The translations under genes and the position numbers were made by a program. From Thermotomaculum hydrothermale (GTDB lineage: Bacteria; Acidobacteriota; Holophagae; Thermotomaculales; Thermotomaculaceae), in contig NZ_AP017470.1 of NCBI RefSeq assembly GCF_016592575.1, positions 1,622,501 through 1,686,500 on the forward strand: 64,000 nt of DNA, given 5' to 3'. Below, piece by piece: positions 1,411 through 4,297 of the stretch (positions are counted from its first letter, which is position 1; every line of letters begins with the position of its first letter). Below the pieces are notes generated by a model. That model saw nothing but the letters and a program-made list of their open reading frames with translations, did not search any database and was not told where the DNA came from.

Positions 1411-2349
1411 TTATTTATCTTTTTCTTTGAGAGTATATAACATCTCGCCTAACTCCCTCGGGATTAAACCGTTATCCCTTGCAATATCCCTGAGGGTCTT
1501 AGTTTCGTCAATTCCTTCAAAACCCCTTTTCTTCAGCAATTCCTTGGCCCTTGAAATATCAATATTTAATTTATAGCAAAAGTCTTTCAAACTCATCTTT
1601 CCTATATATCTTACTCCATCAAAACTTCCGTTTTGTGGTTGTCTTCCCATTCTACCCTGGTATTCATCCTCAACCTGATTATTTTGATGAATATTTTGAT
1701 TTTCATTAGCAGTAGATTTGGAAGATTCGCTTTTTGCCGAAAATTTATAGCTTAACATCTCCCCTATGTTTTTCGGGGCAACATTATTTTCTTCTGCTAT
1801 CTCTTTAATAGTTTTATCAGGAGACACCCCTTTAATATTTAAAATCTGGAGCCTTTGTATAGCCTTATCAAGAGGAATATTTAATTTTTCGCAAAATTCT
1901 TTCAATGTTAGTAGTTCAGCATGCGGAATAACCGGTACTGTATCTCTTTTTTCCCATGAATGAGTGAGATAATCGCCAAAATCCATAACATAAGAGATAG
2001 GTGGGATTGAATATATTGAAAAAACGGAAATTAAAATTGTAATAATAATTGACCAGGCAAACTCTTTCACGGTGAAATTAATGTTATTTACCTTATCCTT
2101 CATATAATTTACAAAAGGCTTCCAGTTTAATATTAAATGCCATATTACAAAAACAGCTAAAAAGAAACTCGTAATAGTATGGAAAGCATTCCATTGGGAT
2201 TTTGATAAGCCTAAAAAACGCCAATCAATCCAATATGCCACTCTACCCACGGGGGCAAAGTACAAAACTATCCCGGAAACTATAGACAATAACCCTGTCC
2301 ATGCAATAAATAGAGATACAAAATTTCTTATTTTAAATCCTTTTTTCAT
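1411..2349 (-). CDS. DUF4405-type membrane protein with two C-terminal helical repeats
   Basis: 312-residue membrane protein. Residues ~10-125 hold four hydrophobic helices in the DUF4405/cytochrome b-like pattern, including NAFHTITS and IWHLILNWKPF, whose histidines could bind haem. The second half is soluble and contains a duplicated ~57-residue unit. Copy 1 begins LTLKEFCEKLNI and ends IGEMLSYKF. Copy 2 begins MSLKDFCYKLNI and ends LGEMLYTL. A Ser/Asn/Gln-rich linker joins them. The ATG has a good AAGGAGG ribosome site. The histidine kinase follows after 4 bases, so this protein may be a redox or membrane partner of the sensor (inference). The domain name rests on the helix pattern and the family's usual layout; the function of the repeat is not known to me. 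Confidence 0.75.
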   Translation of the reverse strand: MKKGFKIRNFVSLFIAWTGLLSIVSGIVLYFAPVGRVAYWIDWRFLGLSKSQWNAFHTITSFFLAVFVIWHLILNWKPFVNYMKDKVNNINFTVKEFAWSIIITILISVFSIYSIPPISYVMDFGDYLTHSWEKRDTVPVIPHAELLTLKEFCEKLNIPLDKAIQRLQILNIKGVSPDKTIKEIAEENNVAPKNIGEMLSYKFSAKSESSKSTANENQNIHQNNQVEDEYQGRMGRQPQNGSFDGVRYIGKMSLKDFCYKLNIDISRAKELLKKRGFEGIDETKTLRDIARDNGLIPRELGEMLYTLKEKDK

Positions 2350-2370: not shown

Positions 2371-2379
2371 ATTATAACA
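2371..2379 (-). promoter_or_regulatory. Extended -10 promoter candidate for the DUF4405/kinase operon
   Basis: The minus strand reads TGTTATAAT, an extended -10 element (TGn-TATAAT). It begins in the T tract of the terminator that closes the DUF2202 gene and lies about 22 bases before the DUF4405 start codon. No good -35 is present because that position falls in the terminator hairpin. It would let the kinase operon restart immediately after termination. Confidence 0.45.
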
Positions 2380-2407
2380 AAAAAATCGGGGGTTTTAGCC
2401 CCCGATT
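2379..2407 (-). terminator. Rho-independent terminator after the DUF2202 gene
   Basis: Perfect hairpin AATCGGGGG / CCCCCGATT with a 6-base loop, followed on the minus strand by a run of T. It separates the DUF2202 transcript from the DUF4405/kinase genes only ~30 bases downstream. Confidence 0.9.
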
Positions 2408-2435: not shown

Positions 2436-3539
2436 TTAGTTATTCACCCTACCACAAGTGGAATAAACATTACCATCTGCGTCTAAAACAACTCCTCTTT
2501 CCATCGGAGAGTTTACTATTGAGTCAAATTCTTCCTGAGAGATGAATTGAGGTTCATATGTTTCACCATTTGCAACAACCAGCCTATAAAAACTTCTCAA
2601 ATGGTTTCTTGAACCTTTCATCAAGTTCTGGAATACCATTTTAATGTCTTCGTTGTTGGTTAAAGCAATCTCGTCTTCCAAATCTTTAATGTCAAGGTCC
2701 TCAATTGTAGCCCCTACTTTCAATGCCTCAGTAAGAGACACACTGCCCTTTTCAACAAGGCTGTTATATAAGTCCGTGAACGCCTGGTCTGTAAAAACTC
2801 CGATTACATTATTTGTTGCAGGGTCTTCCAAACCATATTTATCCAATAAAACCTTTACGGCATCCATATGAGTTTGCTCACTTTGTGCAATATTAGAAAA
2901 AATCCTCAATCCCCACTTCTCATACAAAGTAAGGTAAACATCTCTTGCAAGCTTTTCTTCCTGTCTCATTTTTTCAAGCATATCAACTTCCACATCATTT
3001 AAATCCTGAACAGGCAAGGATGAAATAATTGTTGCGAGATTGCCGCAAGGGCTAATATTACCATATGCCGCTGCTCCATAACCACCTCTTCCGCCTCTTC
3101 TGCCTTTTCTACCTGCCATTCCTCTTGTAGATATCCATAAAGGAATTCCATTTGCATCTCTGAACTCGTAAAGAGAATCTCCTGAAATTACCTGCCTTGC
3201 AATAATTCCATCTGTGCTATCAGAAAAAGTAGTCAAAACACCTATAATTGTTATAACCTGTCCCTCAGTAAAGGTGATATTCTGTTGAGCAAGATACCAT
3301 TTCGGCGCCATAAAAACCGCAAGCTGCCTGGAATCTTCCATCGTTACAATAAGCCTTGAAGGATAAACAGTATCAAACCCTATTACCGTTGCATTAATTG
3401 TTGTTTCCTGGCTCACATCATAATAAGTTGACCCTAACGCACTTCCTCCTCCATTACCACAGGCTCCTCTACCGTTCCCTGCCATAGCGGGAACTGCCAA
3501 TAAAATTGCAATTGTTAAAATTGATAAAATCTTTTTCAT
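2436..3539 (-). CDS. Secreted DUF2202 ferritin-like protein
   Basis: About 367 residues. A Sec signal peptide (MKKILSILTIAILL...AMA) leads into a Gly-rich stretch. An OB/beta-type segment follows (about 40-120, containing ATVIGFDTVYPSRLIV), then an Arg/Gly-rich linker (RKGRRGGRGG). The C-terminal half is a DUF2202 ferritin-like helical domain. MRQEEKLARDVYLTLYEKWG and QSEQTHMDAVKVLLDKYGL supply the Glu/His residues expected of a di-iron site, and the SRNHLRSFYR motif follows. The longer ORF start at 3551 overlaps the ribosome site GGAGGAAATT; the ATG at 3539 is correctly spaced from it. The YKG-repeat gene lies 27 bases upstream and is probably co-transcribed. A metal or redox role in the envelope is inferred from the family. 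Confidence 0.9.
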   Translation of the reverse strand: MKKILSILTIAILLAVPAMAGNGRGACGNGGGSALGSTYYDVSQETTINATVIGFDTVYPSRLIVTMEDSRQLAVFMAPKWYLAQQNITFTEGQVITIIGVLTTFSDSTDGIIARQVISGDSLYEFRDANGIPLWISTRGMAGRKGRRGGRGGYGAAAYGNISPCGNLATIISSLPVQDLNDVEVDMLEKMRQEEKLARDVYLTLYEKWGLRIFSNIAQSEQTHMDAVKVLLDKYGLEDPATNNVIGVFTDQAFTDLYNSLVEKGSVSLTEALKVGATIEDLDIKDLEDEIALTNNEDIKMVFQNLMKGSRNHLRSFYRLVVANGETYEPQFISQEEFDSIVNSPMERGVVLDADGNVYSTCGRVNN

Positions 3540-3566
3540 AATTTCCTCCATTTAATTTTTTTTAAT

Positions 3567-4031
3567 TTAAGATGTTGTTGTTGAATCAGTTGCGGTGGTA
3601 GCCCCACTGCTTCTTTTACCTTTTGAGCCTTTGTATTGGTTTTTCTTTTGCTGTCCGCTTCCACTTCCGTCTTTAAGCCTCTGGCCTTTCCCCTGCCCTT
3701 TTGAGCCTTTGTACTGGTACTTGTTAGAATTCTGAATTGTCGTAGCTGTAGTTGATGCAGTTAAAGTATTATTATTCTGGCCTTTTCCTTTGCTTCCCTT
3801 GTACTGACGCTTGGCTTGACCACCTGAACCTGAACCATCTCTCAACATCTGCCCCTGCCCTTTTAACCCTTTGTAGTGATACTTTTTAGAACTCTGGGTT
3901 TTTGTTGTTATTTGTGAAGAATACCTGCATGAACCGTTTTTTCTCCCTTTACCTTTGCCACCTCTTGCCATAACCGAAGAACCGAATACAAGCATTGATA
4001 CAATAATCAAAAATGTTAATACCTTTTTCAT
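3567..4031 (-). CDS. Secreted basic YKGxKG-repeat protein
   Basis: 154 residues that I cannot assign to a named family. A clear signal peptide (MKKVLTFLIIVSMLVFGSSVMA) is followed by a Lys/Gly/Ser/Gln-rich low-complexity body. The body holds two tandem units of ~43 residues. Each has the order KY(H/Q)YKGxKGQG - LRDGSGSG or LKDGSGSG - QYKGSKGK, so YKGxKGxG-type motifs occur four times. The protein is strongly basic and probably disordered. It precedes the DUF2202 ferritin-like gene by 27 bases and has a sigma-54-type promoter ~45 bases upstream, so it is the first gene of that transcript. Binding of an anionic or metal ligand is speculation. Confidence 0.8.
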   Translation of the reverse strand: MKKVLTFLIIVSMLVFGSSVMARGGKGKGRKNGSCRYSSQITTKTQSSKKYHYKGLKGQGQMLRDGSGSGGQAKRQYKGSKGKGQNNNTLTASTTATTIQNSNKYQYKGSKGQGKGQRLKDGSGSGQQKKNQYKGSKGKRSSGATTATDSTTTS

Positions 4032-4073
4032 TTTTCCCTCCCTTGATTAAATTTTCAAAGACATACTTATAAT

Positions 4074-4089
4074 TGCCAGTATGGTGCCA
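4074..4089 (-). promoter_or_regulatory. Sigma-54-type -24/-12 promoter
   Basis: The minus strand reads TGGCACCATACTGGCA. GG and GC are separated by exactly ten bases, as in the sigma-54 consensus TGGCAC-N5-TTGCA. Transcription would start near 4064, giving a leader of ~33 bases before the YKG-repeat ATG at 4031. No enhancer-binding protein gene is visible in the window. Confidence 0.6.
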
Positions 4090-4297
4090 AACTTAAAAAA
4101 CAAATTGTCAAAATTAAATTTAAGAATTTAATTATCTGAAAAATAAGAAGATAATTTTTCAAAAGAAAAAATTCAGAGATAATAATTTATAAGACAACAA
4201 AAATTCAAAAGGCAATTTTGCCGAACAAAAGGCTATGATTCGACAAAATTGACGAACAAGAAAAATAAGATACCGTAATAAATTCAAAGTTTTGCTT

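Follow-up and report, generated by a model that had tools for sequence, protein, structure and literature searches.

A cluster of minus-strand genes at the left edge of the window (the whole 64 kb of DNA analyzed here, G000:C1:1622501-1686500, from a 2.32 Mb genome in a single contig) is, on balance, best explained as an envelope module for iron/redox handling that is switched by a two-component system through sigma-54. The genes encode, in order, a secreted basic protein with YKG repeats, an exported protein that joins an OB-fold domain to a DUF2202 ferritin-like domain, a DUF4405 membrane protein, and a sensor histidine kinase (HK) (Table 1). Gene order, promoter, dyads, domains, and their conservation were established by computation, and the combination of a ferritin-like domain, a MamS-type OB domain, and a membrane heme b domain suggests iron/redox handling outside the inner membrane. 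The first-pass annotation of this DNA had proposed a sigma-54-controlled envelope stress or metal system; sigma-54 control, envelope location, and co-occurrence of the genes have stood, whereas the MamS/MamX-like OB domain had been overlooked.

Table 1 Features of the cluster, with positions in the window.
Feature	Position	Strand	Details
Sensor histidine kinase, N-terminal 468 codons	1..1406	-	HisKA PF00512 E=7.1e-5
DUF4405 cytochrome b-like membrane protein	1411..2349	-	PF14358 E=3.2e-15, PF01794 E=3.5e-5, PF04760 E=1.6e-6
Extended -10 element TGTTATAAT, putative sigma-70-type promoter of DUF4405-HK	2371..2379	-	TGNTATAAT conserved
Intrinsic terminator, DUF2202/DUF4405 gap	2384..2407	-	9-bp stem, 6 GC pairs, T run
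Secreted OB-domain + DUF2202 ferritin-like protein	2436..3551	-	PF09968 E=1.3e-66, residues 188-348
MamS/MamX-like OB-fold domain	3072..3446	-	Residues 36-160 counted from ATG 3551
YKG protein, secreted (Sec-type), 154 aa	3567..4031	-	Lys/Gly/Ser/Gln-rich, two YKG/DGSG repeat units
Sigma-54 -24/-12 element TTGGCACCATACTGGCA	4074..4090	-	11/13 consensus positions, GG/GC 12 nt apart
Upstream dyad 2 TTCGGCAAAATTGCC, imperfect	4211..4225	-	31 bp from dyad 1
Upstream dyad 1 TTCGTCAATTTTGTCGAA	4239..4256	-	Candidate binding site, NtrC-type regulator

Gene order and transcription units

The YKG and DUF2202 genes are only 15 nt apart and the terminator listing contains no minus-strand terminator in this gap, in agreement with the earlier proposal that YKG is first in a transcript with DUF2202. 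For the DUF2202 gene, ATG 3539 is a likelier start than the listed ATG 3551, because the latter overlaps the Shine-Dalgarno sequence. The terminator that follows this gene is kept in L003 and L004, two Acidobacteria MAGs that provide the nearest named matches of the window DUF2202 protein, and TGNTATAAT, positioned 3' of the terminator, is conserved in the window, L003, and L004. Given that both elements are kept in the two MAGs, a separately promoted DUF4405-HK unit is a reasonable reading, and the own promoter that had been suggested for these two genes on the same strand is plausible. The kinase reading frame passes beyond the left edge of the window.

On the other side of the cluster, the YKG promoter region is flanked by a divergent gene for a FAD-linked oxidase (PF02913, PF01565; 4320-5693, plus strand). 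This gene probably lies outside the module, because G005 and G007, two genomes of the same family, have DUF4405-HK on that side. Mobile-element cargo was rejected as an explanation of the cluster, as no mobile-element genes were seen adjoining it.

Sigma-54 promoter and paired upstream dyads

The -24/-12 element lies 59 nt ahead of the YKG ATG and was equaled in 0/200 mononucleotide shuffles, which preserve base composition only. Across the whole 64 kb, eight sites with at least 11 matches (GG required) exist on both strands, so that a chance site in the YKG upstream gap would be about a 2% event. Related sites stand ahead of the orthologous operon in G005 and G007 (CTGGCATGAAGCTTGCA, 12/13, at 59 nt and 58 nt, respectively) and 57 nt ahead of DUF2202 in L004 (TTGGCACGTTTTAAGCA, 11/13). 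A chance promoter was rejected because the orthologues keep the site, and the sigma-54 control put forward in the first-pass annotation is upheld by its match to the consensus, by the shuffles, and by its recurrence in relatives. The element predicts a transcription start at about 4063-4064, and RpoN is encoded in the same genome (PF04552 E=1.5e-67).

Among 32 upstream regions tested, 13 have a sigma-54 site unmatched by any of 200 shuffles, including those of DUF2202 in G096, G307, G136, G292, and the deltaproteobacterial MAG L007; no such site was found in the tested regions of L112, L119, L005, L006, L010-L012, and others. Counted by gene in 40 loci, 14/51 module genes and 13/383 other genes of the same loci had a GG/GC site scoring 11/13 or better in the interval from 200 nt before the start to 60 nt past it (Fisher p=1e-7), after an overlap filter that removed the YKG gene of G007 and some DUF2202 and OB genes (including those of L117, L120, L168, L171, and L176). 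A sigma-54-like site also precedes DUF4405 itself in G005 (11/13), G096 (12/13), and G342 (12/13); the site in G007 is weaker (10/13; 7/200 shuffles equally good), and none was present in the scanned region upstream of DUF4405 in the window or L004.

Paired dyads (TCGKCA-N4-TGMC type) are located upstream of the sigma-54 site in 4/4 genomes, with start-to-start spacings of 31 (window), 30 (L004), 31 (G005), and 32 bp (G007), i.e., about three helical turns. The half-site is TCGGCA in L004 and TCGTCA in G005 and G007, where the pair sits between two divergent units. Upstream of the -24 element, some 120-165 bp separate it from the window dyads, and TTCGNCANNNNTGNCGA with zero mismatches occurs at a single place in the 2.3 Mb genome, namely dyad 1 (both strands of one dyad). 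NtrC-type activators use paired upstream sites of such layout, and the dyads would accordingly suit binding by a regulator of this type.

The window kinase contains two TM helices, a periplasmic domain, a linker, and HisKA, and it scores 677 bits against a profile of orthologous kinases. In L004, G005, and G007, a histidine kinase and a receiver-AAA+-Fis (NtrC-type) regulator are encoded downstream of DUF4405. In G005, this regulator combines a receiver with sigma-54 interaction and Fis domains, and its NCBIfam models rank as AtoC, then NtrC, then ZraR; for the G005 kinase, the top model is AtoS and ZraS is second. Judged from sequence, sigma-54 control is well supported, with an NtrC-type two-component pair like that of these relatives as the probable controller in the window genome.

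Features of the encoded proteins

The mature YKG protein has a pI of 10.65 and a charge of +25.8. It showed zero Pfam matches up to E=1, and NCBIfam returned AuxB alone, at chance level (E=0.029; 13 bits, cut-off 300), so that its description as a secreted, basic protein of no recognized family holds. The two repeat copies reported earlier are present, but the unit (YKGxKG...[RK]DGSGSG...YKGSKGK) has ~38 residues and the ~43 given before was approximate; at the DNA level, the copies are 162 nt apart and share 81% identity over 54 nt. Homologues with E<1e-5 were found in 2/99 other genomes searched (G005 and G007), and the weak matches in 29 further genomes (up to E=1) most plausibly reflect composition. 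YKG was rejected as an essential core component: in L004 the sigma-54 promoter directly precedes DUF2202 with no YKG gene between them, and we therefore regard YKG as accessory.

The DUF2202 domain scores 223.8 bits against PF09968 (gathering threshold 22 bits), is a relative of the solved structure MJ0754 (PDB 3q4n, E=6e-66), and is weakly related to rubrerythrin. Six residues (E174, E175, E201, H204, E260, and H293; first-row numbering) are invariant in 14 aligned members, and these carboxylates and histidines are candidate metal ligands of what is probably a ferritin-like, di-metal protein. The N-terminal third of the protein is the OB domain, and residues 36-160 of the ORF are unmatched in Pfam. 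Its AlphaFold2 model (mean pLDDT 83.5, core >90) is a beta barrel, and the best matches in a Foldseek comparison with the PDB are OB folds. When 17 aligned OB members were compared to NCBIfam, 14 matched MamS (best 1.3e-6), four MamX (best 6.6e-6), and one YgiW; the window OB domain alone matches MamS weakly (E=0.063), and a doubled-OB protein of G007 reaches 2e-8. Because all score below the MamS cut-off, the OB proteins are relatives of MamS and not MamS itself. Stand-alone or doubled OB domains adjoin the module in G005, G007, G096, G210, G342, G307, and G136. The mature OB-DUF2202 protein is acidic (pI 4.62, charge -16), and the opposite charges of this protein and YKG suggest that the two may bind each other.

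The DUF4405 protein scores 56.8 bits against PF14358 (gathering threshold 26.7 bits). Its hydropathy profile has three hydrophobic segments, i.e., three TM helices, the second of which contains H57 and H71, and this H-x13-H pair is invariant among 17 aligned members. The same H-x13-H spacing is that of cytochrome b heme ligands. The C-terminal half comprises two similar helical domains in tandem (PF04760-like), which also appear in the structural model (mean pLDDT 77.5); Foldseek with this model returned nothing at E<=0.001. We consider the protein a candidate membrane heme-b electron carrier, probably with a dimer of H-x13-H helices.

Conservation and distribution of the module

Co-occurrence in related genomes, the comparison named in the first-pass annotation as decisive for its proposal, was found: G005 and G007 keep all of the genes and L004 all but YKG. 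In G005 and G007, YKG is followed by OB-DUF2202, with DUF4405-HK-NtrC regulator-OB (149 aa) in divergent orientation; the order is DUF2202-DUF4405-HK-NtrC regulator in L004, and DUF2202-DUF4405-HK as far as the contig end in L003. Neither YKG (E<=1e-5) nor DUF2202 was found in G004 (same genus) or G006 (same family). Of 297 genomes sampled from the phylum, including that of the window, 22 contain DUF2202, 226 contain DUF4405, and 70 match the OB profile. More distant arrangements include NtrC-HK-OB-OB-DUF4405 with divergent DUF2202 (G096), OB-HK-NtrC with DUF2202 nearby (G307 and G136), NtrC-HK-OB-barrel-like-OB-DUF4405 (G210, and likewise G342, with no regulator visible at the contig edge), and DUF2202-HK-NtrC without an adjoining OB gene (G196 and G269).

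An HK-NtrC pair adjoins OB in 9/20 further OB loci, and partly in one more at a contig edge; these loci are the best-scoring ones from 20 of the 70 OB genomes, mostly on contigs new to the analysis. For comparison, an NtrC-type regulator was found in 3/19 loci centered on strong DUF4405 matches, and two of these three also contain OB. By genome, OB was present in 11/18 genomes with DUF2202 versus 59/279 others (p=0.0005) when the source genomes of the profile were included, and in 5/12 versus 57/277 (p=0.09, not significant) without them; four genomes with weak DUF2202 matches (E above 1e-5) were left out of the test. Beyond the phylum, DUF4405 of the deltaproteobacterial MAG G359 adjoins an OB protein that carries a DGTGP motif, and a second OB gene of this MAG lies ~0.6 kb from an NtrC regulator.

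Other occurrences of DUF2202 count against the module reading. In several of the 22 DUF2202 genomes, no sigma-54 site or NtrC pair was found near this gene (L112, L117, L119, and L120), and the domain also exists without module parts in L005, L006, and L010-L012 and on plasmids. Module neighbors were absent beside DUF2202 in Thiomicrorhabdus L005, Flavobacteriales L010, Bacteroidales L011, and Firmicutes L012, as well as beside the plasmid matches, whereas L006, L008, and L009 were surveyed by profile scan only.

Several other secreted proteins are encoded near module or OB loci. DGSG/DGTG-rich proteins exist in G150, G142, G267, G232, G328, and G286, including two GPGDGTG-rich ones, which adjoin DUF2202 in G150 (L117 2431-2898) and lie between DUF4405 and the HK-NtrC pair in G142 (L108 8292-8648). 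Homology of YKG to such DGTG-rich proteins is a lead only, unproven because the common motif is short and of low complexity. In G107, a DGTG/DGSG-rich N-terminus is fused to two OB domains beside an HK-NtrC pair (L168 6728-7648), so that a single chain joins the two types of secreted protein. Calcium-type loops (DxDGDGxxD...DGDGIPN) are present in secreted proteins encoded near OB-HK-NtrC clusters (L114 7610-8263, L164 3065-3565, L165 21-605, L171 5013-5411, and L176 5245-5703), and those of L164, L165, L171, and L176 carry a C-terminal CDGTGPKG motif. Finally, a protein of 365-460 residues, beta-barrel-like by eye, adjoins OB genes in five loci (L094 4755-5861, L101 1854-2951, L106 857-2089, L113 8346-9725, and L114 8136-9344); the two copies scanned (L094 and L106) match no Pfam family, and the protein could be a module component located in the outer membrane.

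Proposed function and alternative explanations

In the proposed mechanism, for which we infer the signal, metal, chemistry, ligand, and YKG-DUF2202 contact, the extended -10 promoter would provide basal expression of the kinase and DUF4405. The kinase would sense a periplasmic signal and phosphorylate the NtrC-family regulator, which would bind the two dyads three helical turns apart and drive sigma-54 polymerase at 4074-4090, filling the periplasm with basic YKG and acidic OB-DUF2202 proteins. Under metal/redox stress, the module parts together would most likely act on iron, by oxidizing, sequestering, or re-reducing it, or else remove peroxide, on the outer side of the inner membrane.

An unlikely but serious alternative is a general envelope-stress response like that of ZraP/ZraSR, in which the secreted proteins would be chaperones or metal buffers, the sensor would respond to misfolding or metal, and feedback on it would come from the periplasmic product. 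The layout is the same as that of zraP/zraSR (PMC4987338), in that a periplasmic protein expressed from a sigma-54 promoter accompanies a pair of the NtrC type, with divergent orientation in G005 and G007 as in zraP/zraSR. The ZraS and ZraR models rank second and third for the G005 kinase and regulator, respectively. However, these two proteins fall below the ZraS and ZraR equivalog cut-offs (152.6 against 479 bits and 424.8 against 760 bits), neither the YKG nor the DUF2202 protein has a ZraP-type match in Pfam or NCBIfam (YKG being unmatched in Pfam altogether), and a heme-b membrane protein next to a di-metal-type protein favors redox over chaperone work.

An extension of the iron/redox reading, which we consider rather unlikely, is that the cluster represents an inducible type of periplasmic module that is widespread and handles iron redox, possibly also iron minerals. 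Its parts would be of the same kinds as MamX-MamZ-MamS (a MamS/MamX-like OB domain and a ferric-reductase-like cytochrome b with H-x13-H), combined with a secreted ferritin-like protein and controlled by a sigma-54 two-component system outside any recognized magnetosome island. Envelope systems of this sort could be the source of magnetosome redox proteins.

We regard as improbable a cell-surface or matrix system, in which the YKG/DGSG protein would bind polyanions (LPS, polysaccharide, or DNA), DUF2202 would be a cell-wall partner, and the metal link would be incidental. The contrasting pI values of the mature YKG and DUF2202 proteins are consistent with such a system, as is the recurrence beside the module of DGSG/DGTG-rich secreted proteins (in some cases containing calcium-type DxDGDG loops) and of the barrel-like protein, but L004 lacks YKG and keeps the rest. 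To our knowledge, neither DUF4405 nor the ferritin-like fold has a structural-matrix role, which also counts against it. Lastly, it is very improbable that DUF4405-HK is an unrelated unit placed by chance behind a YKG-DUF2202 operon: the two are separate transcripts in the window with a terminator between them, and DUF4405 is common in the phylum, but the same neighbors are found in L003, L004, G005, and G007 despite the inversion to divergent order, and similar sets exist in G096, G307, and G136.

DUF2202, the three-TM DUF4405, and the MamS/MamX OB domain now have a shared, regulated context. If, as in the preferred iron/redox module, the parts act on envelope iron/redox stress, the magnetosome OB proteins gain non-magnetosome relatives, and sigma-54 two-component control would reach a new kind of output in Acidobacteriota.

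Comparison with known systems

Neither DUF2202 nor MJ0754 was named in any paper found (the only matches were to the PDB-code strings, in papers with unrelated titles), and no description of such a cluster was found in a literature coverage that largely excludes subscription journals. The closest regulatory parallel, ZraP/ZraSR of enterobacteria (PMC4987338), likewise has a histidine kinase with an NtrC-type regulator, a sigma-54 promoter, and a periplasmic protein; zraSR and zraP are expressed from divergent promoters of the sigma-54 type, both activated by ZraR. This divergent layout is mirrored in G005 and G007, whereas the window genes run in one direction, encode other secreted proteins, and include an extra membrane cytochrome.

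The resemblance to MamS and MamX lies in the OB fold of the window type, with sequence kinship to MamS and the MamX C-terminus, and in the placement of an OB domain alongside a ferric-reductase-like membrane protein, as described for MamX-MamZ in parts of PMC3905215 and PMC3847676. In contrast, the OB proteins score far below the equivalog cut-offs (best 34.6 of 200 bits for MamS and 22.8 of 400 bits for MamX), those examined contain no CXXCH, and the window OB domain is fused to a ferritin-like domain and controlled by sigma-54. No mam genes were recognized by eye in the examined loci.

Heme b has been shown for a DUF4405 protein and for the ferrosome protein FezC, according to sections of PMC11334425, and the window protein has the DUF4405 domain and conserved histidines in common with these cytochromes. 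The DUF4405 proteins described in the same sections have six TM helices and four central histidines, whereas the window type has three TM helices, two histidines, and tandem C-terminal helical domains; with only three TM helices it would need dimerization, as proposed there for FezC. MJ0754 (PDB 3q4n, 3q4o, 3q4q, and 3q4r) has the same DUF2202 domain, aligned over residues 175-354, but its solved chains of 193-196 residues consist of the ferritin-like domain alone, whereas the window protein is exported and fused to an OB domain.
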